Assembly (NCBI GenBank): GCA_020723405.1
Contig: DYIY01000015.1
Coordinates: forward strand, 25,039 to 68,117
DNA length: 43,079 nt
Reading direction: 5' to 3'
Source: Thiobacillus denitrificans
GTDB taxonomy: Bacteria > Pseudomonadota > Gammaproteobacteria > Burkholderiales > Thiobacillaceae
Shown here: positions 2,703-42,907 of the stretch, in pieces
How positions within the stretch are numbered: position 1 is the first letter of the stretch
Layout: each line of letters starts with the position of its first letter
Notes under the pieces: generated by a model
Database searches by the model: none
The model's input: only the letters and a program-made list of their open reading frames with translations
Told to the model about the DNA's origin: nothing
Program-made: the position numbers and the translations under genes

Positions 2703-2713
2703 TCTAGTTTGCG

Positions 2714-2730: not shown

Positions 2731-2932
2731 TGGTAAGTTTGTTGTTGAGGATGCCAGTTCGCTTCCTGTCGTGTTCCGGCAACCCGACTTCCCTGCTACC
2801 TCACTGGATGCGCGCCGGTGAGGGATATCTACAGCGCTTCCGATTTTTGGAACTTCTCCCTCCCTGCGTAGGTGAAATATGCGGCTGTCCGCTGGCTCAG
2901 ACACTGTCACCCACTTCAATCAGGAGAGCACC

Positions 2933-3106: not shown

Positions 3107-3129
3107 GCAACGGTCCAAGGAGAATTTCC

Positions 3130-11274: not shown

Positions 11275-11284
11275 CGCCGGTGCC

Positions 11285-12736: not shown

Positions 12737-12746
12737 GGCGTATTCC

Positions 12747-13565: not shown

Positions 13566-13951
13566 GGTTGGCCTCCTGGTTCAACAGGCAAGGCGCCATC
13601 ACTGGAAGCGGGCGGTCGTCCCCCCTCGCACCAGTTGAGGGCGAACTCCGTATGACGATCCCTGGGCGTGGTTTCATTGGGCGGGATCACCTGGCGCTGG
13701 TCGAAGCTCACCTTCAGCCGGGCACACCCCGGATCCCTCAGCCGATGGAGCCGATGCACCGAAACCCGCACCGGCTGCTCGATCACCTGCTCTCGCATTC
13801 GCGCGGCTACCTCACCCGCCAGGATCGTCGAGGCCTGGCCCACGATTCGCGCCCGCTCCATGAGTGGGGCCAATTCGCCCGACAGCTTCATGCCCTGGGA
13901 GGCTGCCAATACTGGCCAGAGCAGGATCAGGATGAAGTCGGCCCGCTTCAT
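13562..13951 (-). CDS. Small secreted protein of the tra operon
   Basis: The 129-residue product starts MKRADFILILLWPVLAASQG, a short signal peptide. The body contains helical ERARIVGQASTILAGEVAAR and a β-rich segment with SVHRLHRLRDPGCARLKVSF, ending in a proline-rich tail. The start is fixed by the ATGA overlap with the traN stop codon, and its stop overlaps traF in the same way. I do not recognise a named family. Position and export signal suggest a periplasmic accessory of the type-F secretion channel specific to this element family. Confidence 0.75.
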   Translation of the reverse strand: MKRADFILILLWPVLAASQGMKLSGELAPLMERARIVGQASTILAGEVAARMREQVIEQPVRVSVHRLHRLRDPGCARLKVSFDQRQVIPPNETTPRDRHTEFALNWCEGGRPPASSDGALPVEPGGQP

Positions 13952-16481: not shown

Positions 16482-17158
16482 GGCTTTCCCCTCAACCGGG
16501 CCAGGCGTGCCTCCGCCACCGCCGCCAGGGGATGGTCCGCCCGGGCCATGCGTTCCAGGACGTCGTCCAGACCGGCGTCGCCGGTGATGCGCAAGATCTC
16601 CGCGCAGGCGGTTGCCTCTCCACAACCCCCGGCCTGGCCCAGCAGGTACACCGGTACCGCCTCGATCCGGTGGCGGGCGAAGGCCTCGGGATCGAGGGTG
16701 GCCCGGGCACCTCGTTTCGCCAGGGGCTCGAAGGCGGCCAGGGTCTTGCGCAAAGACCCCTCCTTGGGTCCCCGGAACACCAGCACCGCCCCCGCCTTGC
16801 CCGCGTCCGACGCCAGCCGCTCCAGGCTGGGCCCGGGCATGGTGAAGGAGACGAAGACCAGCAGATCCGGACCGGCACTGCCCAGGGCTGGCCGTGTTTG
16901 CCGGTAGCGTTGCGCCACCGCCAGGGGGTCGGTGCCCGAGCCCGGACTGGCTCCGGGCTCGGGCACCCGGGGCATGGACTGCATCGGCCGGTCTGGATCG
17001 GCTTGGAAGCTCTCCTCGGCCCGGCGCATGAGCAGCTCGCCGCGCGCCTTCTGCCGGGCCATCTCGGCCCGGATCGCTCCCTCGTTAGGCAGGCCCGGGG
17101 GCGCCCCCCAGGCGGCCAGGCTAAGGAGCCAGGCTGGCAGGAGAGAACACCGACGCAC
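16478..17158 (-). CDS. trbC: Type-F conjugative pilus assembly protein TrbC
   Basis: The 226-residue product starts at a GTG within the end of traU (38-base overlap) and opens with a signal peptide (CSLLPAWLLSLAAWGAPPG). The C-terminal two thirds match the TrbC family: LLVFVSFTMPGPSLERLASD, then AGAVLVFRGPKEGSLRKTLA and IEAVPVYLLG. This is a thioredoxin-like fold without an active-site CxxC. TrbC interacts with TraW in the periplasm and is required for pilus assembly. The gene is followed by the first traN-like gene. Confidence 0.9.
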   Translation of the reverse strand: MRRCSLLPAWLLSLAAWGAPPGLPNEGAIRAEMARQKARGELLMRRAEESFQADPDRPMQSMPRVPEPGASPGSGTDPLAVAQRYRQTRPALGSAGPDLLVFVSFTMPGPSLERLASDAGKAGAVLVFRGPKEGSLRKTLAAFEPLAKRGARATLDPEAFARHRIEAVPVYLLGQAGGCGEATACAEILRITGDAGLDDVLERMARADHPLAAVAEARLARLRGKP

Positions 17159-18155
17159 AGCAGTTCCTCTTTCGGTAAATCAGATAGGCGAAGTCCTCGC
17201 CCCGGTAGGGAAACTCCTTCCCCGCCCCCCAGATCGCCGTGGTCCGCCCGTAGGGCTGGCAGCACTTCCCATCGATCTTCCCGGTCTGGGGCACGGGATG
17301 GAGCATGGCCATCTTGTAGTTGCGCTTGTCCATCAGCGGCTGGGGGTAGTAGCCGCACTGGCCCCGGTTGCCAGAAGCGCCCCAGACCAGCAATTCCCGG
17401 TGCATCTTGGCGGTCATGCGCTGGGCGATAAGGGTGGAGGCCTGTACGCCGCCGATATGGGCCGCCACGTTGCCATTGAGCGGGTACATGGAGCCCTGGC
17501 AGCCCGCGCACCAGTAGAGCTCCGACAACGGAAAACCCGCCGTGGCCGCCACGCAGTCGGCGGCGCACACCGCCTGGGCGGCGGGGTTGGCGAACAGGGC
17601 GACGTCCGGGTTGAGGATGAAGGTGAGCTCCGACTCGTTCCAGAGGGGGTCCACCTCGGTGATGTAGGCGATGTCCAAACCGCCCGGCTCCAGGCAGTCG
17701 GATTCCAGCAGCACCTCCAGCAGGTAGAGCACCGGGAAGGTGTACCAGTGGGCCTGGTAGAAGCTGGAACCATGGGAATCGTGGGTGCCCTTGCCGCGCC
17801 CGTGGGCGGGGGCGTGGATGCCCAGATCCAGTGACAGGCCGCCCAGGGAGGGGAAGCAGTAGGGATGGCGCACCACCTCGGCGATGCGCACCGGCTCCCA
17901 GAAACCGATGGAGATGCCGATTCGGGGCGGATTGGCGCAGCCGCAGATGGCGTCACCCGGGTTGCCGCCATTGTCTTCCTGGTCCATGGAGAAAAGCTTC
18001 GCGCCCCCCAGGGTCAGGGGCAGCATGCAGGACCAGCAGATGTCGGTGATGGGGTTGGGAAACTTGCCCGGACAGGTGGGGCCGGCCCAGGCGGGCAGTG
18101 CCAGCATGCAGCCTGCCAACAGACCGGCCATCCGACGAAGCCAAGGGTGGGCCAT
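17121..18155 (-). CDS. traU: Conjugal transfer protein TraU
   Basis: The product of about 344 residues has a signal peptide ending near LALPAWAGP and the strongly conserved cysteine-rich TraU sequence. Examples are CPGKFPNPITDICWSCMLPL, a GDAICGCANPPRIGISIGFW segment, HPYCFPSLGGLSLDLG and GKCCQPYGRTTAIWGAGKEF. TraU is a periplasmic protein needed for DNA transfer more than for pilus production. The ATG overlaps the traW stop as TGATG; a GTG one codon upstream is an alternative start. The many cysteines fit the presence of DsbC and CPYC-type TraF in the same operon. Confidence 0.94.
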   Translation of the reverse strand: MAHPWLRRMAGLLAGCMLALPAWAGPTCPGKFPNPITDICWSCMLPLTLGGAKLFSMDQEDNGGNPGDAICGCANPPRIGISIGFWEPVRIAEVVRHPYCFPSLGGLSLDLGIHAPAHGRGKGTHDSHGSSFYQAHWYTFPVLYLLEVLLESDCLEPGGLDIAYITEVDPLWNESELTFILNPDVALFANPAAQAVCAADCVAATAGFPLSELYWCAGCQGSMYPLNGNVAAHIGGVQASTLIAQRMTAKMHRELLVWGASGNRGQCGYYPQPLMDKRNYKMAMLHPVPQTGKIDGKCCQPYGRTTAIWGAGKEFPYRGEDFAYLIYRKRNCCASVFSPASLAP

Positions 18156-18766
18156 CACGCGCCCACCTTCAGCTCATCGATGCGCAGCATGCGGCCTTCC
18201 TGGGTGACCCGAGCCGGCACCTGGCGGATGCCCAGACGTTGCACCAGCAGTCCTTGCTGGTCGTAATACACCCGCAGGTCATGGCGCTTCATGAAGTCGA
18301 TGAAGCTGCCGCCGGTGAGGATCAGGTACGCCCGGCCCTGGTGGCGCTGGCGCAGGGCCAGGGCCAACCTGGTTTGTTCCCGGTCGCGGGCGTCGAAAAA
18401 GATCAGCGGCTGGGACAGGGAGACATAGTCCAGGGGATTGACCCGGGTGCCGGCGGCCACCAGGACCTTGCCCTCGTGATCGCGTACCGCTTCCAGCGCG
18501 GTGACCGTGGGATCGAACAGGAAGCTGCGCGGCGTGTTTGTGCGGGCCAGCCCTGCCACCGGCGCGGGCGACTCGATGGCCCGGCGCGAGCGGGCTGCGA
18601 ATTCGGTCTGGATGCGGGCCAGTTCGCCGCTGGCCTGCTTCTCCTCCAGCCGGGTCTGGATGAGCGCCAGCAGGTCGGGCTCCGCCACCGGCCAGACCGG
18701 GCCCACCCGGCCCAGGTCCAGAGCTTGCACCGGCGCGGCGAGCAGCAGAGCCGCCACCCAGACCAT
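18155..18766 (-). CDS. traW: Type-F conjugative transfer protein TraW
   Basis: The ATG at 18766 is preceded by an AAGGA ribosome-binding site at good spacing and yields a 203-residue protein with a signal peptide (MVWVAALLLAAPVQA). Longer starts upstream lack this. The mature protein shows TraW features: the early segment GPVWPVAEPDLLALIQTRLE, RSFLFDPTVTALEAVRDHEG, and the block FFDARDREQTRLALALRQRH leading to AYLILTGGSFIDFMKRHDL. TraW is a periplasmic partner of TrbC in F-pilus assembly. It lies between the signal-peptidase gene and traU, the usual place. Confidence 0.92.
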   Translation of the reverse strand: MVWVAALLLAAPVQALDLGRVGPVWPVAEPDLLALIQTRLEEKQASGELARIQTEFAARSRRAIESPAPVAGLARTNTPRSFLFDPTVTALEAVRDHEGKVLVAAGTRVNPLDYVSLSQPLIFFDARDREQTRLALALRQRHQGRAYLILTGGSFIDFMKRHDLRVYYDQQGLLVQRLGIRQVPARVTQEGRMLRIDELKVGA

Positions 18767-18776
18767 GAGCCGTCCT

Positions 18777-19337
18777 TCAGAAAACGCCATAGGCCCTGCC
18801 CAGGATGCGTTCATGAGCCACGTAGCCCGTTGCCGCATAGCGGGAGTCCAGGGAGTCCCGGTGTGGGGCGTACAGGTAATAGTGCCCGGCCGGAACCGTC
18901 CCCGGCTGGTTGGCCGTCAGCGTCTGCCCCAGCCGCGACACCGCCTTTGCCCGCCCCACGTACTCGCCATTGACGTAGAAATCCCGGCCGAATGTGCTCA
19001 CCTTGTCACCCGGCAAGCCCTTCACCACCTTCAGGAAAACCGCCCCCTCCGGGTAGATGAGCCCACCCTGCCAGCGCCAGGCCACCAGATCGCCTCGCTT
19101 CAAGCTGCCTGGCGCGGGTGTGGCCTTCTCCACCAGCACCAGATGCCAGGGCATGCTCTCGGTGAGCGTGAAACGCAGCCAGTAGTAGTGGCTGAAGATG
19201 AAACCGGCGCAGGCGACCAGACCGAAGGCGCCCCAGGCGACGGGATGGCGCCGGATCGCGGACCAGACCAGGCTGGCATACGCCTTCAGGCCCACCCTGG
19301 GCCGCAGGGCGAGGATGAGGCGCTCAATCCGGGGCAT
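18777..19337 (-). CDS. S26-family signal peptidase of the conjugation system
   Basis: The 186-residue protein has one membrane anchor near residues 33-49 and a compact S26 peptidase domain. The likely nucleophile is Ser61 in LTESMPWHL. The general base is Lys103 in FLKVVKGLPGDKV, matching the (Y/F)xK-x3-GLPGD box of LepB. The C-terminal box DSLDSRYAATGYV fits the conserved DSxDSRxxG motif. Conjugative relatives (TraF of RP4, TrhF) process pilin or other transfer proteins. Here it probably cleaves the TraA pilin precursor. It overlaps trbI at its start and precedes traW. Confidence 0.9.
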   Translation of the reverse strand: MPRIERLILALRPRVGLKAYASLVWSAIRRHPVAWGAFGLVACAGFIFSHYYWLRFTLTESMPWHLVLVEKATPAPGSLKRGDLVAWRWQGGLIYPEGAVFLKVVKGLPGDKVSTFGRDFYVNGEYVGRAKAVSRLGQTLTANQPGTVPAGHYYLYAPHRDSLDSRYAATGYVAHERILGRAYGVF

Positions 19338-19725
19338 GGACGAGCTCCCGAAGTCGGGGCGTCAGATCCTCGGCGCCCGCCACCACGGCATCGGCCACCA
19401 GGATGACGCAGCCGCATTCCCGGGCCAGGCGTTGTACTGCCCGGTTCAGGCCCTGGCCGGCGTGGGTGGCTTCATCGAGGGCTGCCTGGGTTTCCCCCTT
19501 GGCCACCCGCTCGGCGAAACCGCGCTGGGTTTCCGCCACCACGCTGGCCAGGTCCACCCGACCGAAGCGGGGCACTGGCGGTGGCAGAAGGAAGTGGTAG
19601 GCGGCCAGCAGGCCCGCGCCGACGGCGAAGGCCAGCGCCGTGGCCAGGCCCCAGCCGATACCGGTGTTTGCGTGCACTGCTTCCGGCCCGCCGGAATCAG
19701 TAGGCACGACCACGTCCTCAGCCAT
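19324..19725 (-). CDS. trbI: Type-F conjugative transfer protein TrbI
   Basis: The 133-residue protein has a short cytoplasmic N-terminus, one membrane helix at about residues 23-46 (IGWGLATALAFAVGAGLLAA) and a periplasmic helical domain. The later segment GCVILVADAVVAGAEDLTPR matches the TrbI family of inner-membrane proteins that influence pilus outgrowth and retraction. The start overlaps the traC stop by 8 bases and the stop overlaps the S26 peptidase gene by 14 bases. The location directly after traC is the expected one. Confidence 0.87.
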   Translation of the reverse strand: MAEDVVVPTDSGGPEAVHANTGIGWGLATALAFAVGAGLLAAYHFLLPPPVPRFGRVDLASVVAETQRGFAERVAKGETQAALDEATHAGQGLNRAVQRLARECGCVILVADAVVAGAEDLTPRLRELVHAPD

Positions 19726-22294
19726 GGGCCAGCCCCCGTTCCTTCAACACCGCCCGGATGGCCTCGTCCATGTTCAGCCCCGCGCCGGTCTTCTCCCGGA
19801 TGGCATTGAAGTCCTCGGCCCGGGTGGAGGCGAGCATCAGGGAATAGGGATCCAGCACCAGGCGGCCGATGCCGTGTCCCACCGGGCTGTGCACGAAAAC
19901 CTCCGAATACGCCCCCGCCTCGGTGTGCAGGGTCTCCAGCAGGTTGCGCATGCCCGCGCTCACCGCCAGGCGGTTGTTCTTCTCCAGGGCCAGCAGGGAT
20001 TCCGGCTTCTGGCGCAGCATGAACATCCAGTCGGCGTTGTTCAGCGCCGCCGTGGCCGCCTCGTTGCGGTAGTAGTCGTCCACACCCTGGGTGCCGGTGA
20101 CGAAGGCGCCGTTGTACTTGCGCGCCCGCCGGTAGCCCGCCTCGATGAACCCGCCGCTGGTCCCGTTCATCAGGCTCCAGGCCTCGTCGATGACGACCAG
20201 CTTCCTGCGCCCGTCGGAACGGTTGAGTGTGATCTCGTTGGTGATGAGGTACATGAGCAGGAGCAGGATCACCCCTTGCAGGTCTTTCTTCGATTCCAGC
20301 TCGTCCAGTTCCAGCACCACCAGTTCGGCGTCGAAGCGCACGTTGGCCGGCCCCTCGAACCAGCGGCCGTGGGCGCCGTCCTGGGTGTAGGGGAAGAGCT
20401 GGATGCCCATGTTGCGCACCCGCACGTCGCATTTGCCCTCGTCGTCCTTGCAGGCGGTCTTCAGGTGCTCGGCCAGTTCCGTCAGGGTGGGCAGCCGGGA
20501 CTGGCCTTGCGCCTGGTACCAGACCTGACGCAGGGCGATGTCCAGCTGGGACATCTCGTACTGGGGCAGGGGCTCCTGGGGCGAGATCATCTGGGCGATG
20601 ACTGGTTTCAACATCTCCATGTCCTCGTCCAGGTCCGTGACCAGGGAGAAGGGATTCAGGGACAGGTTGGAGGCGGGGGTGAACTCCAGGTACTGGCCAC
20701 CCAGGCGCCGGCACAGGTTCTCGTAGGAGCGTCCGGCGTCGATCACCCAGACCCGGGCGCCGCTGCCCAGGTAGCCCAGGGCCAGCTCGTTCATGAACAC
20801 CGACTTGCCCGAGCCGGAGGTGCCCACCACGCAGGCGTTGAAGTTGCCGGAGGGGTTGGCGAACAGGTCCACCCCCAGAGCCTGGCCGCGCCGGCCGAAC
20901 AGGGCCATGACCGGCTCCCCCAGGCCCGCCCATTCGCCGATGACCGGGGCAAGATGGATCGCATTGGCCGAGGTCTTGAGGCTCTCTCTTCCCGCCCGTT
21001 TCGCCTCCCGCTGGAGCGAAGGGGTATAGGCCATGGGCAGGCCCAGCATCAGGCTTTGCAGGTTGAGGAAGGTATCCGACTGCAAGTCGAAGCCGAGGCC
21101 GCGCCACACGCCCCGCGCCGCCAGTTCGTCCCTGGCGGCGTGAGACGGCAGGGAGAAAAGGGTGAGCTGGTGATACAGGTACACCAGGGACCCGGCTCCG
21201 GAATAGGCGGCCATGGCCGTATCCCAGTCCAGCTTCTGTTCCTGCCAGTCCGGCATGAAGGCGGCCAGCTTGCTCTGGGCCGCCTGGGTGGCCCGCGCCG
21301 CCTTGAGGGTGGCGAAGGAACGGGTGGATTCGTAATCCGGGATGCGCAGCCCCAAGGTGATGAGAAAGGGGCAGGAATAGGCCTGGGAACCCTGGACGAA
21401 GTCGCCGATCAGGCCGCCCATGGCGGCCAGCTCCATGGTTCGGGGATAGTTGCGCACCGACAGGCAACGCACCACCGCCTCGGCGCTGTCGGCGGGACTG
21501 CCCACCACCAGGCCGTCGCGAGTGACCCGGGTGAGGGTGTCCAGGGCCAGGATCTGGTCGCCGATCAGGCGGCCATCGTCGTAGGCCAGGCGCTGGGCCT
21601 CGCCCTTCAGCAGCCGGTTGGGGTTGAGCACCTGGGCGCACCAGTGGATCAACTCGTCCGGCCCCCACTCGCCCGCGTACAGATAGGCCCCCTTCAGCAC
21701 CGTGGCCAGGGCCTCGCGCAGGGTCAGGGCGTTCTCCAGGGCATCCCGATCGGCCATGCCCTCTGCGGGCAGGGTTACCGACAGGGCGGCCAGGAAGTGG
21801 CGTGGCATCCAGGGCAGGCCCGGGAAAGGGGGATGGATCGCGGCCCGGGCCAGATGGGCGGCCCGGCGCCGGGCGGCCTCGGTGTGGAGCCCACCGACGG
21901 TACGCAATCCCCGGTATCGGTCGAGGAAGTCGTGGATATCCGGCGTGCCCAGGAGATGGAATTGCAGGCTCGCCCCGGTGGGTAGTCCGTTGAAGATCGA
22001 CTTGAGCACCGAGGCCATGCGCGCGTCGGCGCCGGTCTGGGGATGCAGGGCCAGCACGAAGCCCACCGCCTCCACCGGGTCCTGGCCGTTGCGGCGTGCC
22101 CCCGGCGGACGTTCCAGCAGGAAAAGCCGCTCCTCCGGCAGCCAGCCGGAATAGGGCAGCCAGTCGGCCAGGCGGTCGAAGCTCGGCATGGGCGAGGGCT
22201 GGGCCAGGGTTGAGGGCAGATAGGCCGAGTCCGAGAAATCGGTCCGCGCCGGCCGCCAGAGCCCGCGCAGGAAGGCGAAGGTGTCAGCGCTCAT
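19718..22294 (-). CDS. traC: Type IV secretion ATPase TraC (VirB4 family)
   Basis: At 858 residues this is a full-length TraC. The nucleotide-binding domain carries Walker A GTSGSGKS at about residues 490-497 and Walker B LVVIDEAW near 695-702. It is followed by the VirB4-typical NGTSGGFIEAGYRRARKYNG and GTQGVDDYY segments. The N-terminal half is the TraC-specific region (LADWLPYSGWLPEERLFLLE). TraC is the cytoplasmic/inner-membrane motor that energises pilus assembly. Its ATG lies 11 bases inside the end of traV. Confidence 0.96.
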   Translation of the reverse strand: MSADTFAFLRGLWRPARTDFSDSAYLPSTLAQPSPMPSFDRLADWLPYSGWLPEERLFLLERPPGARRNGQDPVEAVGFVLALHPQTGADARMASVLKSIFNGLPTGASLQFHLLGTPDIHDFLDRYRGLRTVGGLHTEAARRRAAHLARAAIHPPFPGLPWMPRHFLAALSVTLPAEGMADRDALENALTLREALATVLKGAYLYAGEWGPDELIHWCAQVLNPNRLLKGEAQRLAYDDGRLIGDQILALDTLTRVTRDGLVVGSPADSAEAVVRCLSVRNYPRTMELAAMGGLIGDFVQGSQAYSCPFLITLGLRIPDYESTRSFATLKAARATQAAQSKLAAFMPDWQEQKLDWDTAMAAYSGAGSLVYLYHQLTLFSLPSHAARDELAARGVWRGLGFDLQSDTFLNLQSLMLGLPMAYTPSLQREAKRAGRESLKTSANAIHLAPVIGEWAGLGEPVMALFGRRGQALGVDLFANPSGNFNACVVGTSGSGKSVFMNELALGYLGSGARVWVIDAGRSYENLCRRLGGQYLEFTPASNLSLNPFSLVTDLDEDMEMLKPVIAQMISPQEPLPQYEMSQLDIALRQVWYQAQGQSRLPTLTELAEHLKTACKDDEGKCDVRVRNMGIQLFPYTQDGAHGRWFEGPANVRFDAELVVLELDELESKKDLQGVILLLLMYLITNEITLNRSDGRRKLVVIDEAWSLMNGTSGGFIEAGYRRARKYNGAFVTGTQGVDDYYRNEAATAALNNADWMFMLRQKPESLLALEKNNRLAVSAGMRNLLETLHTEAGAYSEVFVHSPVGHGIGRLVLDPYSLMLASTRAEDFNAIREKTGAGLNMDEAIRAVLKERGLAHG

Positions 22295-22886
22295 CGTCCT
22301 CGGCCGGTTGGGGGGCGCGTGCCGATTCCAGCACCGTGTCGCGGGCGTCCTGGCGGGTAGTTTCTCGATGGGTGGCGGGGTCCGCAGTCCGGGTACCGGC
22401 TGGCGCAGCGATGGGCGCCGCCTTTATGGGTGCAATCGGCGCGAACTGGCTGCGGATCACCGCCTCGGTATGGCCCAGTTGCCACGCGCCCCGGTGCCAC
22501 ATCACATAGAGATAGGCCTGGTCATGCAGGTCCCCGTCCTCGTCCACCCAAGGGGCGAGCCAGAGCCGCAGCACCCTGGGTGGAGACAGCAGGGGCGTGC
22601 CGGCGGCCGACGCGGCGCTGGCGGGGGGTATCGCGCCGTAAGGCCTGGGTAGATCTGCCGAGTGTTTCGAGTCGGTGCCGGTGGCGGATTCAGGCGCCGC
22701 GCTTTGGGGGCTTTCTTCCCGCATGGCCGGCAGTGTTCCCGCCACGGTATTGGCATACACCCCGGAAACGGAGGTGCAGACCACCCCATCCGGTGCCCGG
22801 CAGGCGAACTCGCTCTTACCTTCCAGGCCGGCCATGTTGGCGCAGGCCGATAGGGCGGGGAGCAGCAGCACAATGGCCCGTCTCAT
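22284..22886 (-). CDS. traV: Type IV conjugative transfer lipoprotein TraV
   Basis: The 200-residue product begins MRRAIVLLLPALSACANMAG, a lipoprotein signal with lipobox LSAC, and continues GKSEFACRAPDGVVCTSVSG, the hallmark of TraV. TraV is the outer-membrane lipoprotein that with TraK and TraB forms the envelope-spanning core complex. A proline/alanine/serine-rich linker follows, then a C-terminal segment with WLAPWVDEDGDLHDQAYLY. The start is fixed by an ATGA overlap with dsbC. Confidence 0.92.
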   Translation of the reverse strand: MRRAIVLLLPALSACANMAGLEGKSEFACRAPDGVVCTSVSGVYANTVAGTLPAMREESPQSAAPESATGTDSKHSADLPRPYGAIPPASAASAAGTPLLSPPRVLRLWLAPWVDEDGDLHDQAYLYVMWHRGAWQLGHTEAVIRSQFAPIAPIKAAPIAAPAGTRTADPATHRETTRQDARDTVLESARAPQPAEDDER

Positions 22887-23632
22887 GGCCGCTTCTCCTC
22901 GGCGGTGGGTTTCCGATCCCCTTCCCCCAGGAAATCCTCGATGCGCCGGGCGGGCGCAGCCCCCGCCAGGTGCCGTCCCCGGACATCGAACAGGGCGGGG
23001 GTGCCCTCTACCCCCAGATTGCGGGCCAGCGCGATGTTGCGGTCGATGGGATGGGCACACTCGGCGGCGGGGGGTGGTGCCTTGCCCTCCAGCATCAGCA
23101 CCTGCCAGGCGGCGGCCCGGTCCGGGGCGCACCAGACGGCGATGGCCCTGGAACGCGCCTGGGGATGTAGTTCCGCCAGGGGATAGAGGAAGGTGTGAAC
23201 GGTGACGTTGTCGAGCTTGGCCAGTTCCTGCTCCAGCTTGCGACAGTAGGGACAGTCCGGGTCCGAGAACACCGCCAGCACGCGGGAGCCGTTGCCGCGC
23301 ACGGTGGTGATGGCGTCCGCCAGGGGCAGGTTGGCGAAGTCGATGCGCCGGGCCGCCTCCAGGCGGTCCGCCGTCAGGTCGCGCTGTTCCCGCATGTCAT
23401 AGAGGTGGCCGAACAGAAAGTGGCGTCCATCGCCGCCCACATAGGCCAGGTTGCGGCCCATGGTGACCTCGTAGAGGCCGGGCATCGGAGTCGGGCGGAT
23501 GTCCCGGAAGCTCGTGGCGGGATAGGCGGCCTTGAGGGTGGCCTCGATGCGGGTGACCGGGTCCGGGTCGGAGGCCTGGACCGGGCTGGCCAAAGCCAGG
23601 CCGGTGAGGAGAATCAGGGTTGCGTGTTTCAT
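22883..23632 (-). CDS. dsbC: DsbC-type periplasmic disulfide isomerase
   Basis: This 249-residue protein has a signal peptide (LILLTGLALASPVQA), a DsbC-like N-terminal dimerisation domain (residues 25-95) and a thioredoxin domain with the active site CPYC at residues 127-130 in FSDPDCPYCRKLEQEL. A VEGTPALF cis-proline loop follows. Plasmid- and ICE-borne DsbC proteins assist folding of the cysteine-rich transfer proteins TraN, TraU and TraH, all encoded here. It lies between traB and traV, as in SXT- and IncA/C-type elements. Confidence 0.93.
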   Translation of the reverse strand: MKHATLILLTGLALASPVQASDPDPVTRIEATLKAAYPATSFRDIRPTPMPGLYEVTMGRNLAYVGGDGRHFLFGHLYDMREQRDLTADRLEAARRIDFANLPLADAITTVRGNGSRVLAVFSDPDCPYCRKLEQELAKLDNVTVHTFLYPLAELHPQARSRAIAVWCAPDRAAAWQVLMLEGKAPPPAAECAHPIDRNIALARNLGVEGTPALFDVRGRHLAGAAPARRIEDFLGEGDRKPTAEEKRP

Positions 23633-23635
23633 GAT

Positions 23636-24904
23636 CTATCGCGCTCCATAGCGTTTGCCGGTCTCAAAGGGAACGCCCGCCGAGGCCTCGCCCATGGGCA
23701 ACATGGCGCCCTTGGTGATGACCACGTCCACCAGCCGGCCGGCATCCACCTCCACCACCGGGTAGAGCTTCTCGGCCAGGGAGATGTAGTACTGGGCGAG
23801 GCGGTCCATCGCCTTGCCCACCCCTGAGGAGATGCCGGCCTTGAACTCCTCCCCCGACTTCACGGTGCTGGTGGAACCCAGGGGCGAGGTGGTGGTGGTG
23901 GTGGCGCTCTGCTGGAAGGCCTGGCCCAGGCCGGAGCCGATGCCGGCGATGAGGGCGTTGGCCAGCACCTGGCCCTGCTTGGTGATGAGCCGGCCCATCA
24001 CCCCCGCCTTGCCGTCCTCCCCGGCCACATAGCCCTTGATGGGCAAGTCCAGGGATTCGCCCCGGGGTGAGACGCAGGACAGGGACTCGGTGCGGATGTA
24101 GGCCCGCTCGGAGGAGAGGTCGCCATAGCCGGAACCGACGATGAGGCAGTCCTTCGCCTTGAGCCGGAACTGGTTGGGCAACTGGGCGTGGTCCACCAGG
24201 CGCAGCAGGACGGGATGGGGGTTGCTCTGGGCCTGGCCGCCGGTGGGGGCGTTGAGCCCGGCCAGCAGCACCGCCCGGACGAAGGAACCGGAGGGCAGGT
24301 AGGTGCCGGGGGTCTTGGCCGCCTGCCGGTCCTTGTTGGCGGTCGGCTCGGTTGCCGGCCGGGCATCTGGTGCCGGCCCCATCTCGCCGGACTCGATGCC
24401 CCTCTCCAGGATGGCAGGGGAAACCCCCAGCGGGGCCGGCTGGCCCGGCACCGAGATGGGTGGCGGCAGGGGTACCACCGAGACCGGCCGGGTGGGGGCC
24501 AGGGGCGGAGGCGGCGGCAGCGAAGGCAAGCCCGGTGGAAATCCGGGTACTTTGGACACCGCGTTTTTCTCCGCTTCCTGGCGCTTCATCAGGTCGTTGA
24601 GCTCGGCCAGGGAACGTTCCAGGCGGTCGATGCGGGTGCCTTCCTGGCCGCGCCAGGCATCCTTGGGATCCACCCCGGCACCGGCCGGTGCCACCGCCAG
24701 AGGGACGGGCTTCTCCGGCAGGCCGGCGCCGGTTTGGGACTTGCCCGCCCGCATGAAGGCCACCAGGCCGATCAGGCCCAGACCCACCACGATCAACACC
24801 CCGCCAGCGATCAGGGCCTGCCGGCGCCGGATGGCCGCCGCGGCGGCGGAGAGCATGGGCCTGGCGCCCCTGCCGGCTCGATCGTTCTTGCCGTCGAGGA
24901 TCAT
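23636..24904 (-). CDS. traB: Type IV conjugative transfer protein TraB (VirB10-like)
   Basis: The 422-residue protein has a cytoplasmic N-terminus, one membrane helix at about residues 33-52 (LIAGGVLIVVGLGLIGLVAF) and a coiled segment around 80-100 (RIDRLERSLAELNDLMKRQE). A proline-rich periplasmic spacer follows, and then a C-terminal β-domain with LPSGSFVRAVLLAGLNAPTG and KDCLIVGSGYGDLSSERAYI. This is the VirB10/TraB scaffold that joins the inner and outer membranes. The ATG overlaps traK as ATGA. Confidence 0.94.
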   Translation of the reverse strand: MILDGKNDRAGRGARPMLSAAAAAIRRRQALIAGGVLIVVGLGLIGLVAFMRAGKSQTGAGLPEKPVPLAVAPAGAGVDPKDAWRGQEGTRIDRLERSLAELNDLMKRQEAEKNAVSKVPGFPPGLPSLPPPPPLAPTRPVSVVPLPPPISVPGQPAPLGVSPAILERGIESGEMGPAPDARPATEPTANKDRQAAKTPGTYLPSGSFVRAVLLAGLNAPTGGQAQSNPHPVLLRLVDHAQLPNQFRLKAKDCLIVGSGYGDLSSERAYIRTESLSCVSPRGESLDLPIKGYVAGEDGKAGVMGRLITKQGQVLANALIAGIGSGLGQAFQQSATTTTTSPLGSTSTVKSGEEFKAGISSGVGKAMDRLAQYYISLAEKLYPVVEVDAGRLVDVVITKGAMLPMGEASAGVPFETGKRYGAR

Positions 24905-35769: not shown

Positions 35770-36894
35770 ATGAAAAAGAGCAACCCGCCCTTATTTGAAC
35801 TGCATGAGGAATTGGACGAGAGTCTTAGACCTACGGTATCGGCGCTGGACAAGGCGCGGTTGACAGCTTTCTACCTGAGTCGCGATCGCCTTCTGGGTCT
35901 GCTGAATTCCCAGCGCCTGCCTGCGCACATTGTGGCGGCCCTTCAAGGCCAAGATGACCAGATGTCGGCGGCGATCCTTTCCAATGCAGTCGGCTCATAC
36001 CTTCTGCAGGCGATAGCCGGAGGTAGTGTGAAGACGCTGCCGCAACTTGCCTTTGAAGGTGGGCTGAAAGAAGGTGTTCCGTTCATCTACAACGGTCACG
36101 TCACTGGCAAAGGCTTCGCCGTTGCGAACAAAACCCCTGCTTTGAGTCTCACAGAGAAGCTTGACGAGCCACTTGCCGACAAGAAGCTTGTCTTCGAGTT
36201 TTCCAAGAACGGTCTAGTGAATGACACTGCGTACACCCGCATGTCTGGCTCGACGCGCCTGTTCGCGTTTGGCTACATCACTGGGATCGACGACGCCGTC
36301 ATCCGCGCCGTGCCTTACGTTGTGGGGGATTTGGTCGCAAGCAGCCATACGATGACCTCGCCATTCGTGCCGACGCTCGAACTGCGACCTGAGGAAATCG
36401 AGCAGTTCACCGGAATGGACGAGACCTGGTTTCCCTCCAAAGCCGAGTTCAAGCGCATGACCATGATCCCGGAACTGGCCGTCAAAGAGCTGATCTGTTG
36501 CCTGCTTGGCGAGCATTCAGTGCCCAGCGATTGGGGGGGAGAGGAAAGCGATGTGCTGTCGGCCAACTTGCTTGTTAATAGCCGCCGTCACACAGCGGCG
36601 TTCTTGCTCAAGGGGCCAGCACGGTTTCACCCGATGAGGCCAACTGACCTTGGAAAAAATGGCGACCAACTCTACCGCCTCTTCAACATTCCTGCCCAGA
36701 TCTACGTGGTTCAGCATTGCCATGATATTGGCGCCGCCGTCCGCAAGCAGGCAGAGGCGTTTGCGTTCGCACGAAGTTTTGTCGCCCCCTGCCAGATTGT
36801 TTTCATGGATGGCCTCACGACAGCGCGTCTGCTGCGGGCTCATGGGCGTTGGCCAGCGACAACGCCTATTTCGAGAAGAGGAAAGGCAGCATGA
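35770..36894 (+). CDS. Unrecognised first component of a putative four-gene defence system
   Basis: From the ATG at 35770 the product has 374 residues; the start is uncertain because no clear Shine-Dalgarno precedes it and an in-frame TTG at 35750 is possible. The N-terminal half is mixed α/β. The C-terminal part, about residues 262-374, has a distinctive conserved-looking block: TAAFLLKGPARFHPMRPTDL, GKNGDQLYRLFNIPAQIYVV, QHCHDIGAAV and VFMDGLTTARLLRAHG. The strand-K-loop-GDQ-strand order could be a degenerate restriction-endonuclease-like fold, but I see no full PD-(D/E)XK triad. Its stop overlaps the next gene as ATGA. Confidence 0.75.
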   Translation: MKKSNPPLFELHEELDESLRPTVSALDKARLTAFYLSRDRLLGLLNSQRLPAHIVAALQGQDDQMSAAILSNAVGSYLLQAIAGGSVKTLPQLAFEGGLKEGVPFIYNGHVTGKGFAVANKTPALSLTEKLDEPLADKKLVFEFSKNGLVNDTAYTRMSGSTRLFAFGYITGIDDAVIRAVPYVVGDLVASSHTMTSPFVPTLELRPEEIEQFTGMDETWFPSKAEFKRMTMIPELAVKELICCLLGEHSVPSDWGGEESDVLSANLLVNSRRHTAAFLLKGPARFHPMRPTDLGKNGDQLYRLFNIPAQIYVVQHCHDIGAAVRKQAEAFAFARSFVAPCQIVFMDGLTTARLLRAHGRWPATTPISRRGKAA

Positions 36895-37520
36895 CGGTTC
36901 GGTCACCCCATCGTGACGCCCTGCGAATTCTGTTCGTCTTGAGGGCAGGAGGTAGCCCCGTTGAGCCACCGGCAGCTGAGCATGCTCTCATCTTCAAAGG
37001 GGAAGCACGCTTACAAGCGTTCGACTTCTGGATGCGAAATCCAGACTATCTTGCGGCTGAGTTGCTTGATCTGTTCGCGGAGACAAAGGACAAGAACTAC
37101 TACGAAGCAGCGCAGGCGATCTTGGACGACGAGGAACCTGACCTTCGCCGCGTTCCGATGGTCCGGTACTTCTTTGGCGCCTACGAACGCCTGGATGATG
37201 CCTTGTCGCTACTGAGGTCACGGGATCTCGTTCGCATCACTGGCATCAAGGGAGCCAACAACAAGGTCTTGGAGACAGACTTCGTTCTTACGAAGACCGG
37301 CTATGACACTTGCTCGACCGCAGTATCGCAAGAGCCAATCCTTCAGTGGTACGCGGACAGGGCCGAGTTGGTAGCAAAGGTTGCCGGCACCATGGGCGGG
37401 ACAGCTTTGAAGCAGAAACAGTACAAGCGCGCGAGCTACGCGGAGACCAAATTGGGCGGGGTCATTCCTGCCATCACCGAAGATGTGCGAGTTCGCATAA
37501 CGCAGCTGCAATCCGACTAG
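36891..37520 (+). CDS. Putative middle component (winged-helix-like) of the four-gene system
   Basis: The ATG at 36891 overlaps the preceding stop as ATGA and has a strong AGGAAAGG ribosome-binding site, so it is preferred over 36849. The 209-residue product has DALRILFVLRAGGSPVEPPA, ARLQAFDFWMRNPDYLAAEL and VRYFFGAYERLDDALSLLRS. The late segment, VRITGIKGANNKVLETDFVL followed by TKTGYDTCS, looks like a winged-helix wing. Small helical proteins with this leucine-rich FDFWxRxP pattern resemble the middle components of ABC-three-component systems. The assignment is by pattern only. Confidence 0.7.
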   Translation: MTVRSPHRDALRILFVLRAGGSPVEPPAAEHALIFKGEARLQAFDFWMRNPDYLAAELLDLFAETKDKNYYEAAQAILDDEEPDLRRVPMVRYFFGAYERLDDALSLLRSRDLVRITGIKGANNKVLETDFVLTKTGYDTCSTAVSQEPILQWYADRAELVAKVAGTMGGTALKQKQYKRASYAETKLGGVIPAITEDVRVRITQLQSD

Positions 37521-37534
37521 CGATTGGGAGAAAG

Positions 37535-39502
37535 ATGGCGCAACCCAAAGAAGAATGGCTACAAGCGATAGCTACGAGGGCGGAAGCGGAGACTAGCGCA
37601 GTTGAGGGAGTCCTTTCCGCTCACCGAATTCAACCATCACCTGTACTCGCCCAGCCTCGCAGGCTTGTTCTGCGAGAGATCGAGTTTTCTGGCGCGAAGG
37701 ACGGCGTCGCGAACGCTGGCACTTTCGCGTTTTCATGGACGGCCCTTGATCACGGCCTGTGGGCTATGCTCTCTGAGCACAACCTACGGGGCAAGTCGAC
37801 CATCATCGAGATTGTTCGATGGATGATAAGAGGAAGACCGTCAAGCAACCTGCAAGACGATGTGAGGCGATGGGTTCATGCCGTGCGGCTTGGTTTTCTC
37901 CTTGATTCAGACGAATACGAGATCGTCGCCAATACCCAGGGCGAGCCCATCGGCAATCTCTACCGTATTCTTGCGCCCGGCGCTACTGGAGGCGATCCGG
38001 GGAGAACCGTTCTTGCCGACTTTGCGACCGATGGCGAGTTCGAAGCAGTCATGGCGGATTTCTTCATGCGCACGTTCGCGATGGATCCGATATCGAACTT
38101 GCGACAGGGAGGAGAGGACGGGGGGCAATCGGTAACGCATAGCTGGGTAGCCTTCTCAGGCGCCATGTTCATCGGCACCAACTACGAGGTACTTCTTGGC
38201 GATATGCCCGTTGCGACCGGTCTCACATCACGGCTGATGCAGATGTACCTCGGCGTCCCATGGGTTTCAACACTCGCTGCTGCGAAGACCGCGTGCCAGC
38301 TCGTTGAGCAAACGGTTCAAGCTTCTGTGCGAAGAAATGAACAGGGACATGAGGCGACCAAAGCACGCATTGCAAACATAAACGCCCAACTGGCAGAGAA
38401 ACGTGCTGAGCTAGCGAAGATTCCAAGCGATGAGGCCGTGCGCAACGCCATTGATACCGATGCGACCGAATTGGCCGATGTTCGTCGCCAAGAGCGAATC
38501 TTGGTCGAACGTGCGGAACGCGCCGTTGCCGCGCTCCGAGAACTAACCACCGTCCACCAGGAAGATCGGCGGGACCTCCAGACACACATGGATGCCATGT
38601 CCGCGATGGCAGTGTTTCGTCGCCTGGAACCGAAGTGCTGCCCTCGCTGCGATCACACGATTTCCAAGGCGAAGAAGGAACTTGAAAGTTCCACGCACTC
38701 ATGCTCTGTTTGTGGTGAGTCGATCACGAACTCCGAAGACGGCGAAGTGATCAAGGCTGAGTTGCAAGAACGGGTTGCGGCATCGGAGGCCGCAGTAGCA
38801 CGCGCCTTGGCCAAGAAAGACGAAGCGGAAAATGAATTGGCCGCCCTTCGAGGAAAAGCTGATCTCCTACAAAGTCGCCTTGAGTCGGCTTCTAAGGAGC
38901 TAGGTTCCGCAGTGCAGCGGCAAGAGGTCGCAATGGCCGTGGCGGTTCTGGAAGGCCGGTTGGAAGAAGCCTCTATAAGCCCAGTTGCGCAAGATGACGA
39001 CCGAAGCGGCGAACTGAAAATTTTGTCTGCTGTCGTTGCGGAAACGGAGGCTCGCGTTAAGGCCGTGCGGGACGGATTGCTCACCGATGTTTCAGCACGC
39101 TTGGTTGAATACGCCAAGGCCTTCGGAATGGAGAATCTGTCGGTAGCGTCACTGAAGGGAAACGCGACACTGTCGTTGGTTAAAGGGGGAGTACCCACAA
39201 GCTACAGCAAGGTGACGGAAGGCGAGAAGCTACGTCTGAAGGTGGCGGCCGTTCTCGCGATGATCGAAATTGCTGAAGCGCGGGGTATTGGTCGGCACCC
39301 GGGACTGCTCATGATTGATTCGCCCGCAGCCCAAGAGGTATCTCACGTGGACGTGGATCACCTTATTGCCGGGCTTCAGTCAGTCTTCACCAAACTACCG
39401 CATTTTCAGGTGTTCGTTGCCGGCATCTCATCCAAGGCGATAACCGATCACATACCGGAAACGCATCGTCGTGAGGTTGCCGGCAACGCCTTCCTATGGT
39501 GA
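37535..39502 (+). CDS. Rad50/ABC-type ATPase with two CxxC motifs, core of the four-gene system
   Basis: The ATG at 37535 has a GGGAG ribosome-binding site and gives 655 residues. A Walker A variant, EHNLRGKSTIIE, is at about 81-92. A coiled coil from about 265 to 350 leads to two CxxC pairs, CPRC near 369-372 and CSVC near 390-393, at the hairpin tip where Rad50 has its zinc hook. A second coil returns from about 405 to 500. The ABC signature is TEGEKLRLKVA near 561 and Walker B is GLLMIDSP near 590. The ATPase head is therefore complete but divergent. Such SMC/Rad50-like ATPases sense or clamp DNA in Lamassu/ABC-3C, Wadjet and related systems. Confidence 0.88.
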   Translation: MAQPKEEWLQAIATRAEAETSAVEGVLSAHRIQPSPVLAQPRRLVLREIEFSGAKDGVANAGTFAFSWTALDHGLWAMLSEHNLRGKSTIIEIVRWMIRGRPSSNLQDDVRRWVHAVRLGFLLDSDEYEIVANTQGEPIGNLYRILAPGATGGDPGRTVLADFATDGEFEAVMADFFMRTFAMDPISNLRQGGEDGGQSVTHSWVAFSGAMFIGTNYEVLLGDMPVATGLTSRLMQMYLGVPWVSTLAAAKTACQLVEQTVQASVRRNEQGHEATKARIANINAQLAEKRAELAKIPSDEAVRNAIDTDATELADVRRQERILVERAERAVAALRELTTVHQEDRRDLQTHMDAMSAMAVFRRLEPKCCPRCDHTISKAKKELESSTHSCSVCGESITNSEDGEVIKAELQERVAASEAAVARALAKKDEAENELAALRGKADLLQSRLESASKELGSAVQRQEVAMAVAVLEGRLEEASISPVAQDDDRSGELKILSAVVAETEARVKAVRDGLLTDVSARLVEYAKAFGMENLSVASLKGNATLSLVKGGVPTSYSKVTEGEKLRLKVAAVLAMIEIAEARGIGRHPGLLMIDSPAAQEVSHVDVDHLIAGLQSVFTKLPHFQVFVAGISSKAITDHIPETHRREVAGNAFLW

Positions 39503-41472
39503 CTGGCATGCATCCGATCGAAGCCGAACTCATAGAGGTCATGAAGAGTGGGCGAGACTGGCAGTTGGCAGATCTTGGGGGGGTCACGAAGCTCGCGCCA
39601 GCAGCACGATCGCTCGGCAGTTCGCCCATGATGCCCGAGCTGCTTCACCCGCTTGTGTTGGGGTGGAGCAATGCCAAGGCGGCTGATCGAGACGCGCACA
39701 AGGGTGTCCTGCACGATCTATTGGAGGTCGCGACAACTGACTTCGTACTCCTTGAGGCGGTCGATATCCTTGAACATCATCGGCCACTGCCGGACGACGG
39801 AGATGAGTGTTGCTTCATGCTGTTCCTGGCAAAGGCAGCAACCGGCGACCATTCGCTATCTGGGCTATCGCGCGGCGCAGCGCTTGATGGCGCGTTTCGC
39901 TGGGCCGGCGACAACAGACGCTGGCAGCTTCGCCTACTGGACTTCTTCCTCGGTCTTGCACCAGGCGACGACACAGAGTTCCTGCGACGGGCCGCCAAGA
40001 TTGTCGGCGTCGCTTTTTCGCACTGGCGCGACAAGGAACTAGTCGAGGTTCTGCGCAAACTCGTCCAACTCGAAGCGGTCCGGCCTGAGGCAGCTTTCGA
40101 GTTGGGGATGGCTACTCTTGCTGAAGCCATGGACAGAGTGGACAGCAACGCGGCAGCCACCGCCTTCCGTGAGGCTAGAGACTGGTTTGGTGAGTCCGAC
40201 GGAGTATCTGAGCACCGTCCGGAAGTCAGCTTGTACCTCGACGGCCTTGATCTACTCCTAAGCTTCCACAGCGGTGCTGCAAGCACATCGTTCGGTACCG
40301 TGAGCGACCGTGTTCAGCAGCACGCGTTCGAGCTGCACGCTTGGTCCGGAGGCTCCGGCCCTCCGTGGTTGGGGGCGAGACAGACCGAGGCGGCGTGTTG
40401 GAGCGTGTTGGCCAGTGCCGTAGCAGGACTGGCAGGCTCACTTGACGAACCGAGTTGGTGGGAACCGGCAGCTGTCATCGAAGAGGGGCTCCTGTCTGTG
40501 TACAGCGCGGGTCGATCGATCTTGCGTCGAGATCAGCACGGTGGCGTCGAAGCGATGGTCAGACCTCGAATACGCGCAAGTGTCGCCACGCAGGCCGGAC
40601 AGGCGCATCAAGTGCGCAGGTGGATCCAACAAAACGCGACCCATGAATGGGCCGCGGAAGCGCGAGATCTGATAGCACAGATTGATGCTTTCATTGAACA
40701 GTCAGGCAATCCGAAAAACCCTCCTGAGGCGGCGAGCGAACGGACCTCGCTCGCCGCAATCATCGCAAGGTCCAACATCCCGGAAGAACAGAGGAATGTC
40801 ATCGGTGTAGTCACGAACGCCGTGTCGTTGCAACTTGCCAATCTGACAAGCGCCGAAGTCGATGTCATCGAACGCTGCTGTAAGGAGGCACGGGGGCACA
40901 CCGACTACAGCGCGAATACGAACGGGACTTGTCTATTCGACACCGTGCTTCTCTGGTTGGTCCGTTTTGTTTTCAATCGCCTGGAATTGACTAAGGGCGA
41001 CGACCCAACTGGCGCCTACCTCTTCGAACGCGATGACGGTTCACTGCCTCACGAGAACGAACTACAGCAGGATTTTTTTCGCTGGGTGGCAACGTATGCA
41101 GCAGGGAGCGACCTTGAACCGACAAACATTGCGAGTGGCAGAGCCGATATACGCCTGAGATCTGGCCCCGAACGTCTCATTGTCGAGGTAAAGCGCGAGG
41201 AAACAGACTGCTCCTTCGATGCGCTCTTCAAATCGTATGCAGCACAAACAACGGACTACCAGAACATCAGCATCCGGCTGGGCGTACTGTTGGTGCTCGA
41301 TTTGGCGACACCGAACCGCGAAGGTACTCCGCATCTAACGAGCTTGTTTGAGATGCGCCACGTCCGCCGCAGCGGCGAATTCCAGTCACGGCTGATCTTG
41401 ATCGTCAAGGTTCCGGGCCGGCGCAAGAGGCCGAGCGACCTCACAAGACTTGCCAAAACAAACCGATCCTAA
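39496..41472 (+). CDS. Large protein with C-terminal PD-(D/E)XK nuclease domain, putative effector
   Basis: The ATG at 39496 lies inside the end of the ATPase gene (7-base overlap); an alternative is 39508. The 658-residue protein is mostly helical, with repeat-like helices over about residues 1-500. It ends with a restriction-nuclease-like domain: acidic residue in GRADIRLRSG (about 550), core RLIVEVKREE (about 562-571, the EVK motif), and a later helix with LFKSYAAQTTDY. That set is typical of Mrr/Cap4-like PD-(D/E)XK nucleases. It is the best effector candidate of the cluster, acting on DNA when the ATPase complex is triggered. The helical part may be the regulatory or oligomerisation region. 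Confidence 0.82.
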   Translation: MVTGMHPIEAELIEVMKSGRDWQLADLGGVTKLAPAARSLGSSPMMPELLHPLVLGWSNAKAADRDAHKGVLHDLLEVATTDFVLLEAVDILEHHRPLPDDGDECCFMLFLAKAATGDHSLSGLSRGAALDGAFRWAGDNRRWQLRLLDFFLGLAPGDDTEFLRRAAKIVGVAFSHWRDKELVEVLRKLVQLEAVRPEAAFELGMATLAEAMDRVDSNAAATAFREARDWFGESDGVSEHRPEVSLYLDGLDLLLSFHSGAASTSFGTVSDRVQQHAFELHAWSGGSGPPWLGARQTEAACWSVLASAVAGLAGSLDEPSWWEPAAVIEEGLLSVYSAGRSILRRDQHGGVEAMVRPRIRASVATQAGQAHQVRRWIQQNATHEWAAEARDLIAQIDAFIEQSGNPKNPPEAASERTSLAAIIARSNIPEEQRNVIGVVTNAVSLQLANLTSAEVDVIERCCKEARGHTDYSANTNGTCLFDTVLLWLVRFVFNRLELTKGDDPTGAYLFERDDGSLPHENELQQDFFRWVATYAAGSDLEPTNIASGRADIRLRSGPERLIVEVKREETDCSFDALFKSYAAQTTDYQNISIRLGVLLVLDLATPNREGTPHLTSLFEMRHVRRSGEFQSRLILIVKVPGRRKRPSDLTRLAKTNRS

Positions 41473-41827: not shown

Positions 41828-42907
41828 CTAGTCGGCCTTGTCGTCAGGCGGCTCGAAGAGCATCCGCTCGAACTCGCGTCCATTGAACTGATCAGTGTTG
41901 GCATTGCGCCTCCAGAAATCAAAGATCGACTCATCAGGACAGCGCTCTACGATGAACAGCGCCTTGGTGTTCTCCTCATCATAAGGAGCTTCTAATCCGA
42001 TGGCTGTGTCGGCGTCTCCCAGAACGACATAGTCGAACCGCTTAAGGTCATTCAGTACGGGCTGGACACGCCCACCCTCGAAGGGCAGGACGGCGCCGGG
42101 CACAAGCCCTACGCGAAAGATCTCGGGATGACAGAGTTCAAAGTGAACGACCTCTCCACGAGGCGCGTGGCGGTAGACGTGCTGGGAAGCAATGGCGCTT
42201 GCCGGCACCGAAACTTTCAGCGTAGCCCGTCGGTTCCAAGTGTTCTCACGATAAACGCGAATTGAAACTGCATCCGCCCAACTGCGCGCGTTCGTGGGCA
42301 TCAAGACGATCTGCTCATCTGACGCCATGGCGATGCGTTGAAGGTCATGTTTAGTTTGGATGTCTGGAAGGCTGGTGAAATAGGCATAGCCGACGTTCTC
42401 GAGCTTCTTTGTGCCCTGGACATTCCACTGCGAAGAACGGAAGTGCCCGCTTTCCTCAATAGCTTTTCGGTATTCCGGGGTCGTGTGGTGGAAGAGGTCA
42501 AGCAGTAAGTCATTGTCATCGCTGACGGTGCAAGTTCCTGTCGCAATTGCGGCGAGATCTGACGCTCCTGAGATGAAGCAGCTGTAGAGGTGGGAACCGT
42601 CCTCAAACTTGCGAACCAACTGGCCGGAAGTGAACTGAATCGACAAGCGAGGCGGCTCCTCACTGAGGTCTATCCAAAGATTGCAGATGGCAAATCCATC
42701 TAGATAATGCAGCAAACACGCCGTGAAGAACTTTGGTTGATACCATTTCCAGCCGCCGACTTCCGCGACTAGCAGCTCTGGCAGCAGGAGGCTAAAACCT
42801 TGTGCATGTATTAGCTTGAGCTTGATGAGCCCTTCGACTACGCCCTCTCTTGCTCGAATAGTCGACAGCCACTCCTGCTCTTCAGCATCTCCGATTGCAC
42901 TAGCCAT
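41828..42907 (-). CDS. Hypothetical protein with an ADP-ribosyltransferase-like (HYD1-type) motif
   Basis: The 359-residue product starts at an ATG with an AAAGG ribosome-binding site. The N-terminal 130 residues are of unknown type. At about residues 136-180 the sequence reads LLDLFHHTTPEYRKAIEESG, then HFRSS and GYAYFTSLPDIQTKHDLQRI. This recalls the LYHYT...YFTDLP signature of HYD1-type ADP-ribosyltransferase-fold toxins. The remaining 170 residues (RENTWNRRATLKVSVPASAI and further) are β-rich and may complete the fold or form another domain. It converges on the four-gene cluster. It could be an independent toxin-like defence gene; function is not established. Confidence 0.7.
   Translation of the reverse strand: MASAIGDAEEQEWLSTIRAREGVVEGLIKLKLIHAQGFSLLLPELLVAEVGGWKWYQPKFFTACLLHYLDGFAICNLWIDLSEEPPRLSIQFTSGQLVRKFEDGSHLYSCFISGASDLAAIATGTCTVSDDNDLLLDLFHHTTPEYRKAIEESGHFRSSQWNVQGTKKLENVGYAYFTSLPDIQTKHDLQRIAMASDEQIVLMPTNARSWADAVSIRVYRENTWNRRATLKVSVPASAIASQHVYRHAPRGEVVHFELCHPEIFRVGLVPGAVLPFEGGRVQPVLNDLKRFDYVVLGDADTAIGLEAPYDEENTKALFIVERCPDESIFDFWRRNANTDQFNGREFERMLFEPPDDKAD

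Follow-up and report, generated by a model that had tools for sequence, protein, structure and literature searches.

A Lamassu operon of Thiobacillus denitrificans headed by an apparently unnamed accessory gene with relatives beside other defence systems

Lamassu-family systems, proposed to detect aberrant DNA, ends for example (PMC10586767), comprise a Rad50/SMC-like ATPase, LmuB, for many of which a cysteine hook has been described, and an effector protein, LmuA, whose effector part the same review places at the N-terminus. The authors of PADLOC described LmuC as a further protein, present in roughly one in ten of the Lamassu systems that they detected, and one LmuC-bearing system lowered plaquing of at least one phage (PMC8565338). 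The general idea of domains shared across defence systems is covered by a perspective (PMC10952713), and a pair formed by a HamM-type gated nuclease and a trypsin-like protease has been gained repeatedly by Hachiman, AVAST, Lamassu and DRT systems (PMC12799240). Here we describe a stretch of 43,079 nucleotides from Thiobacillus denitrificans (assembly GCA_020723405.1, contig DYIY01000015.1, positions 25,039 to 68,117; hereafter the window), part of a 4.15-Mb genome in 42 contigs, in which a Lamassu operon carries an additional first gene, gene 1. The value of the finding lies in this gene, an uncatalogued portable accessory gene on a catalogued Lamassu core. A literature search, outside whose scope lay subscription journals and most preprints, so that an earlier description is possible, recognised no published description of the gene 1 family, which is apparently unnamed; a survey of BREX systems discusses OB-folds and accessory effectors, with the gene 1 protein absent from the passages covered (PMC12839542).

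The Lamassu core and its additional gene

The operon comprises the following features:

35770-36894, plus strand: gene 1, accessory protein of 374 aa (54 relatives, AlphaFold 2 (AF2) model and structure matches)
36382..36891, plus strand: predicted nuclease-like domain of gene 1, residues 205-374
36891-37520, plus strand: lmuC (gene 2), 209 aa (PADLOC PDLC03872)
37535-39502, plus strand: lmuB (gene 3), Rad50/SMC-like ATPase, 655 aa (PADLOC PDLC03864)
39496-41472, plus strand: lmuA (gene 4), C-terminal PD-(D/E)XK effector domain, 658 aa (PADLOC PDLC03853)

By their profile matches, genes 2-4 are a Lamassu-family system, lmuC-lmuB-lmuA, that is already catalogued. Gene 2 matched the PADLOC profile PDLC03872 LmuC (E 1.6e-79, residues 3-207 on profile positions 9-214 of 220), gene 3 matched PDLC03864 LmuB over its full length (E 4e-218, residues 1-655) and gene 4 matched PDLC03853 LmuA (E 4.7e-207, residues 5-651). 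Pfam and NCBIfam gave almost no matches in these genes, and a profile search of LmuB against the PDB returned no relative at E up to 0.01. A preliminary description of the window had drawn four tightly coupled plus-strand genes, among them a Rad50/ABC-type ATPase with two CxxC motifs and a 658-residue protein ending in a PD-(D/E)XK domain, on the plan of a Lamassu or ABC-three-component (ABC-3C) system. Open reading frame (ORF) coordinates and junction sequences (ATGA overlap between genes 1 and 2, 14-base gap between genes 2 and 3, 7-base overlap between genes 3 and 4) bear out this drawing, and the family matches and conserved motifs agree with the rest of it.

The operon shares with the Lamassu family its three components, including a Rad50/SMC-like LmuB with paired cysteines and a nuclease-type LmuA, and differs in its additional first gene. 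The cysteine pairs of LmuB are CPRC and CSVC, with C372, C390 and C393 invariant in all nine aligned LmuB proteins. In the Walker B motif D595 is followed by S596, and the glutamate after the aspartate is absent from all nine, with serine instead of glutamine; the Lamassu review reports replacement of the catalytic glutamate by glutamine, as a tendency and not as a definition (PMC10586767). The C-terminus of LmuA carries the motif GRAD...EVK...Q, so placed that the nuclease of the window protein is C-terminal, unlike the N-terminal effector of that review. Because these C-terminal residues (E541, D551, E564, K566 and Q584) are invariant in 10/10 aligned LmuA proteins, the principal effector seems to be intact, with gene 1 not standing in for it. 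ABC-3C systems are likewise built from an ABC ATPase, a small middle component and an effector protein, but no Pfam CTD or MC model matched genes 1-4 at E up to 1.

This branch of LmuB is sparse: among 398 genomes of the phylum seven gave a match (E up to 1e-20), and among 369 of the class one did (1e-30), the window's own genome. A Janthinobacterium lividum plasmid (L082, NZ_CP139977.1:32810-32944) holds about 134 bases that are 85% identical to the 3' end of lmuA, have no annotated gene and are perhaps a remnant.

Distribution of gene 1 and its change of partners

Gene 1 travels with lmuCBA in one lineage. A block of 5.6 kb, reaching from the interior of gene 1 to the end of gene 4, was found by blastn at 77-90% DNA identity in three other assemblies, namely Halomonas sp. 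A40-4 (L011, 87%), Pseudomonas sp. EpS/L25 (L014, 90%) and a Dechloromonas metagenome-assembled genome (L013, 77%). The alignments stop at 41459-41472, the end of lmuA, and the adjoining flanks of the three loci had no blastn match to the window over 150 bases; L013 also has HsdM sequence in common with the window, elsewhere. Ratios of non-synonymous to synonymous substitution rates (dN/dS) against L011 and L014 are 0.14-0.15 for gene 1, 0.06-0.07 for lmuC, 0.13-0.14 for lmuB and 0.15-0.16 for lmuA. The four-gene arrangement is therefore more than chance, given the conserved block with unmatched flanks and dN/dS of 0.06-0.16. The Dechloromonas copy of gene 1 has scattered N and an in-frame TAG, for which error and decay are indistinguishable. 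DNA similarity to the sister operons begins inside gene 1 (window 35797-35866), the first 10 to 33 codons differing between copies.

Lamassu operons in general lack gene 1. Among plasmids, six loci whose LmuB is 27-36% identical contain just lmuCBA (gene 1 in 0/6; lmuB split into two ORFs in L007), and the 36 plasmid records with an LmuB relative have none in common with the two that carry a gene 1 relative. In the phylum sample of 398 genomes, seven had LmuB and three had gene 1 (E up to 1e-10), two having both: the window's own genome and G798, judged from 100% protein identity to be the Pseudomonas locus L014 that the three assemblies above already include. The other five LmuB loci of the phylum lack gene 1; four hold lmuCBA, and the fifth (L081) is cut by a contig end, with lmuB in two ORFs. 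The lmuCBA loci of the wider family that were opened and lack gene 1 thus total ten. In a smaller sample of 101 relatives gene 1 was present in one, the window's own genome, and where it has homologues on Gordonia and Rhodococcus plasmids, lmuCBA is missing from the vicinity.

The reading of the locus as a new four-gene system was rejected, as genes 2-4 are Lamassu and related lmuCBA loci occur without gene 1. The preliminary description had proposed an uncommon four-gene system whose fourth, upstream gene does not fit the standard set. Rarity holds for the LmuB branch, and the conserved four-gene synteny that it had asked after is present in the three assemblies, but the core is catalogued as Lamassu in PADLOC; the upstream gene does lie outside the standard set, but it is not a subunit peculiar to the system, being absent from the ten lmuCBA loci and having relatives beside other systems. 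A match to a named system was accordingly obtained for genes 2-4 and not for gene 1.

A scan of 84,980 species genomes, resting on two motif patterns, recovered 54 relatives of gene 1 in Pseudomonadota, Actinomycetota, Nitrospirota, Bacteroidota, Planctomycetota and other phyla. Genes in these loci were called by our own script, which gave no gene 1 call in 2/54 (L029 and L064). The neighbours scanned were 30 chosen proteins (20 against Pfam and PADLOC, 10 against Pfam), other loci being assigned by sequence cluster. On this basis a neighbouring operon was assigned in 19/54 loci, as listed below, and no partner was assigned by these scans in 35/54.

Lamassu: 3 loci
Type III restriction: 4 loci, methylase before and UvrD-like helicase after
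Uncatalogued kinase-bearing actinobacterial cassette, whole or part: 8 loci
Gabija GajA-GajB: L015, 6-base gap to the gene 1 relative
Septu PtuA-PtuB: L022, 4-base gap to the gene 1 relative
ABC-3C with Pfam CTD10, MC6 and DUF2326: L012, preceded by the gene 1 relative
SIR2 and Dsr1-like pair: L046

Coupling is tight across different operons, from the ATGA overlap with lmuC to gaps of 2-8 bases to PtuB, GajB and the type III methylase. A same-strand neighbour lies within 100 bases in 28/52 loci, a count in which the neighbour at L061 and L062 is gene 1's own second fragment and from which the Lamassu locus L013 is missing through a spurious call. The place of gene 1 varies: it is first in the Lamassu operon and final in the loci with Gabija, Septu, SIR2 and the kinase. 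Some loci without an assigned partner have other suggestive neighbours, namely an HNH protein (L054), a PLD-type protein (L033) and a large helix-turn-helix protein (L016); others look solitary. Locus L024, one of the 19 with an assigned operon, is a 3.2-kb contig. An extra gene 1 copy in G645 has no neighbour from these clusters except one protein related to a gene flanking L027. The idea that gene 1 is a phage gene was set aside: two scans confirmed no relative of it in viral contigs, one unannotated fecal phage record matching its C-terminal half (40% identity over 40% of the query). A blastn search with gene 1 against E. coli genomes gave no match.

The partner has changed among close relatives: copies 69-86% identical to that of the window sit beside Lamassu, Gabija and ABC-3C. 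The relationships were drawn from a quick tree with Shimodaira–Hasegawa approximate likelihood ratio (SH-aLRT) support and no bootstrap, holding 45 rows, that is, the window and 44 of the 54 relatives. Left out were L013, L021, L027, L029, L044 and L060-L064, which are broken, partial, uncalled or near-duplicate; a copy each from the Lamassu, type III and kinase groups is among them. Gene 1 of the window falls in a set of five rows (SH-aLRT 99) with three Lamassu copies (that of the window included), one ABC-3C and one Gabija copy. A wider set of eight rows (SH-aLRT 99) adds one Septu locus (L022, on a long branch and of unsure place), one with a helix-turn-helix neighbour and one without assigned partner. 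The type III and kinase groups lie elsewhere in the tree, each on one side of a branch. Nine partner labels need eight changes on the tree, which is the minimum, so a single origin is conceivable for each association, gains and losses being indistinguishable. The term transferable accessory gene suits gene 1 better than that of fourth subunit in a new system.

Several of these loci have features of their own. The actinobacterial cassette at L048:3030-9907 has up to five genes (403, 150, ~220, ~1030 and 456 aa), the last a protein-kinase gene, and precedes a gene 1 relative; it recurs, whole or in part, in L040, L043, L044, L045, L047, L049 and L050, of which L040 holds only the kinase and a short C4 piece and L047 has C4 and C6 on the other strand. 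Strong Pfam and PADLOC matches among the five proteins of L048 were confined to the kinase, with weak ones in the 150-aa and 1030-aa proteins, and the actinobacterial C4 and C7 proteins had no PDB relative at E up to 1. The cassette is not a catalogued system and is possibly an undescribed defence system. In the type III loci L023:3035-13122, L026:2807-12808 and L027:2795-12808, the gene 1 relative and a UvrD/GajB-like helicase gene adjoin methylase and restriction genes (L026 scanned; L023 and L027 by cluster), and L026 has a Bro-N/PDC-S13 protein as well.

Predicted fold and possible roles of gene 1

Against Pfam, PADLOC, NCBIfam, PHROGs and PDB sequences gene 1 gave no significant match, and profile look-ups with its alignment likewise gave nothing usable. 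The AF2 model (predicted local distance difference test score 87.7, with the N-terminal start its least confident part) predicts an N-terminal OB-like barrel (~79-191) and a C-terminal restriction-endonuclease-like domain (~221-362). The best structure matches of the C-terminal part are MspJI and AspBHI, with MspJI, a modification-dependent restriction enzyme, also leading a second structure search. AspBHI is modification-dependent according to its PDB title. Identity to the two is at most 14% over the matches, and gene 1 differs from them in its N-terminal OB-like barrel and the absence of the motif-III acid.

Ten residues (E235, K239, D254, E258, D261, K281, D299, Q300, R303 and H316) are invariant in 45/45 aligned rows, conservation of DWGGE and VVQHCH being partly built in through the two motif patterns by which the relatives were found. 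Despite D261 and K281 in all rows, the canonical PD-(D/E)XK motif D...(E/Q)-x-K is not present: the motif-III acid is missing in 44/45 rows, position 279 being L in 28, A in seven, I in seven and V, Q and M in one each. Because this acid is absent, we call the domain restriction-endonuclease-like and not a canonical PD-(D/E)XK member. Gene 1 probably encodes a DNA-acting protein, in which the OB-like barrel would hold nucleic acid and the restriction-endonuclease-like domain would cut it.

The closest published parallel is HamM, like gene 1 a separate gene, typically upstream, for a nuclease (in gene 1 a predicted one) repeatedly acquired by unrelated immune systems including Lamassu (PMC12799240). 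HamM differs in being a metallo-beta-lactamase-type hydrolase with a protease fused to its partner, as against the modelled OB-like and restriction-endonuclease-like domains of gene 1. No metallo-beta-lactamase-type match with E up to 0.1 was obtained for the 45 aligned gene 1 members, which places them outside the HamM type, and no Pfam peptidase domain was matched in genes 1-4.

We propose that a Lamassu system, lmuC-lmuB-lmuA, took up mobile gene 1 at the head of its operon. LmuB and LmuC would be the sensors of foreign DNA, a function already proposed within Lamassu, and would set the LmuA nuclease free, and the gene 1 protein, translated in step with LmuC, would act on the same DNA as a second nuclease. 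What the sequences show directly is the arrangement and coupling of the genes, the matches to families, the four-gene block and the partner changes; binding of DNA, catalysis, reliance on a partner and a defence role are inferred. In our judgement it is evenly balanced whether gene 1 serves as a second effector acting on DNA, under licence from its partner system or alongside it, and this co-effector role is the most likely of the readings, with an independent restriction enzyme and a step before the sensor both less probable.

Gene 1 might instead be a type IV-like restriction enzyme that works on its own, its barrel recognising modified or unusual DNA and its MspJI-like domain cutting, with no partner needed and co-location arising from the clustering of defence genes. 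This would suit the modification dependence of both best structure matches, the 35/54 relatives without assigned partner and the Gordonia and Rhodococcus plasmid homologues that lie apart from lmuCBA. However, tight coupling to different operons and a four-gene block in three other assemblies exceed loose clustering, and the barrel resembles OB-folds, with no SRA domain among the 50 structure matches listed, a listing that does not exclude one; we consider this reading unlikely. Less probable still is a sensitiser acting upstream of the sensor, which would nick or trim phage DNA and so make the ends or structures detected by ABC-type ATPases. The four partner systems in the eight-row set each have an ABC/OLD/SMC-type ATPase (LmuB, GajA, PtuA and PDC-M68B), as expected of such a role, and Lamassu is thought to recognise DNA of that sort (PMC10586767), but the other neighbours (type III restriction, the SIR2/Dsr1-like pair and the kinase cassette) are not all DNA-end sensors. 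A non-cutting regulator or immunity protein that binds nucleic acid and restrains the partner's nuclease would accord with the missing motif-III acid and the first place in the Lamassu operon, but is the least probable reading, as the invariance of E235, D254, E258, D261, K281, D299 and Q300 in 45/45 rows is unusual for a dead enzyme and gene 1 is the final gene at the Gabija, Septu, SIR2 and kinase loci.

Genomic setting and significance

The preliminary description had also placed the operon beside a conjugative island and a restriction locus, and scans of ten neighbouring proteins concur, six of them giving conjugation-type matches:

88-7635, minus strand: type I restriction genes upstream of the operon, two HsdM and one HsdS
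8185-24904, minus strand: F-type conjugation region with TraG, TraH, TraN, TraC, DsbC-like and TrbI
41828-42907, minus strand: 359-aa protein, convergent with the operon, without convincing family match

Gabija with its gene 1 relative (L015:5961-18275) and the broken gene 1 copies of L061 and L062 also lie near conjugation genes, of the clusters C11, C12 and C13 found in the F-type region of the window, and may be cargo of conjugative islands related to the window's.

Beyond this locus, gene 1 may found an unnamed family of portable immune nucleases, built of an OB-like barrel and a restriction-endonuclease-like domain, that were acquired separately by unrelated systems (among them Lamassu, Gabija, Septu, ABC-3C, type III restriction and the kinase cassette) and are switched on by their own sensors as a common plug-in part, a proposal that we put at somewhat below an even chance. 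The proposal lends itself to direct testing, since beside three different systems there are copies 69-86% identical to that of the window. The gene also flags loci that defence libraries such as PADLOC annotate only in part. If the proposal is true, gene 1 would join the protease-activated HamM nuclease as a second example of one part exchanged between immune systems, and its recurrence beside unrelated systems would point to a shared activation signal or a shared substrate.

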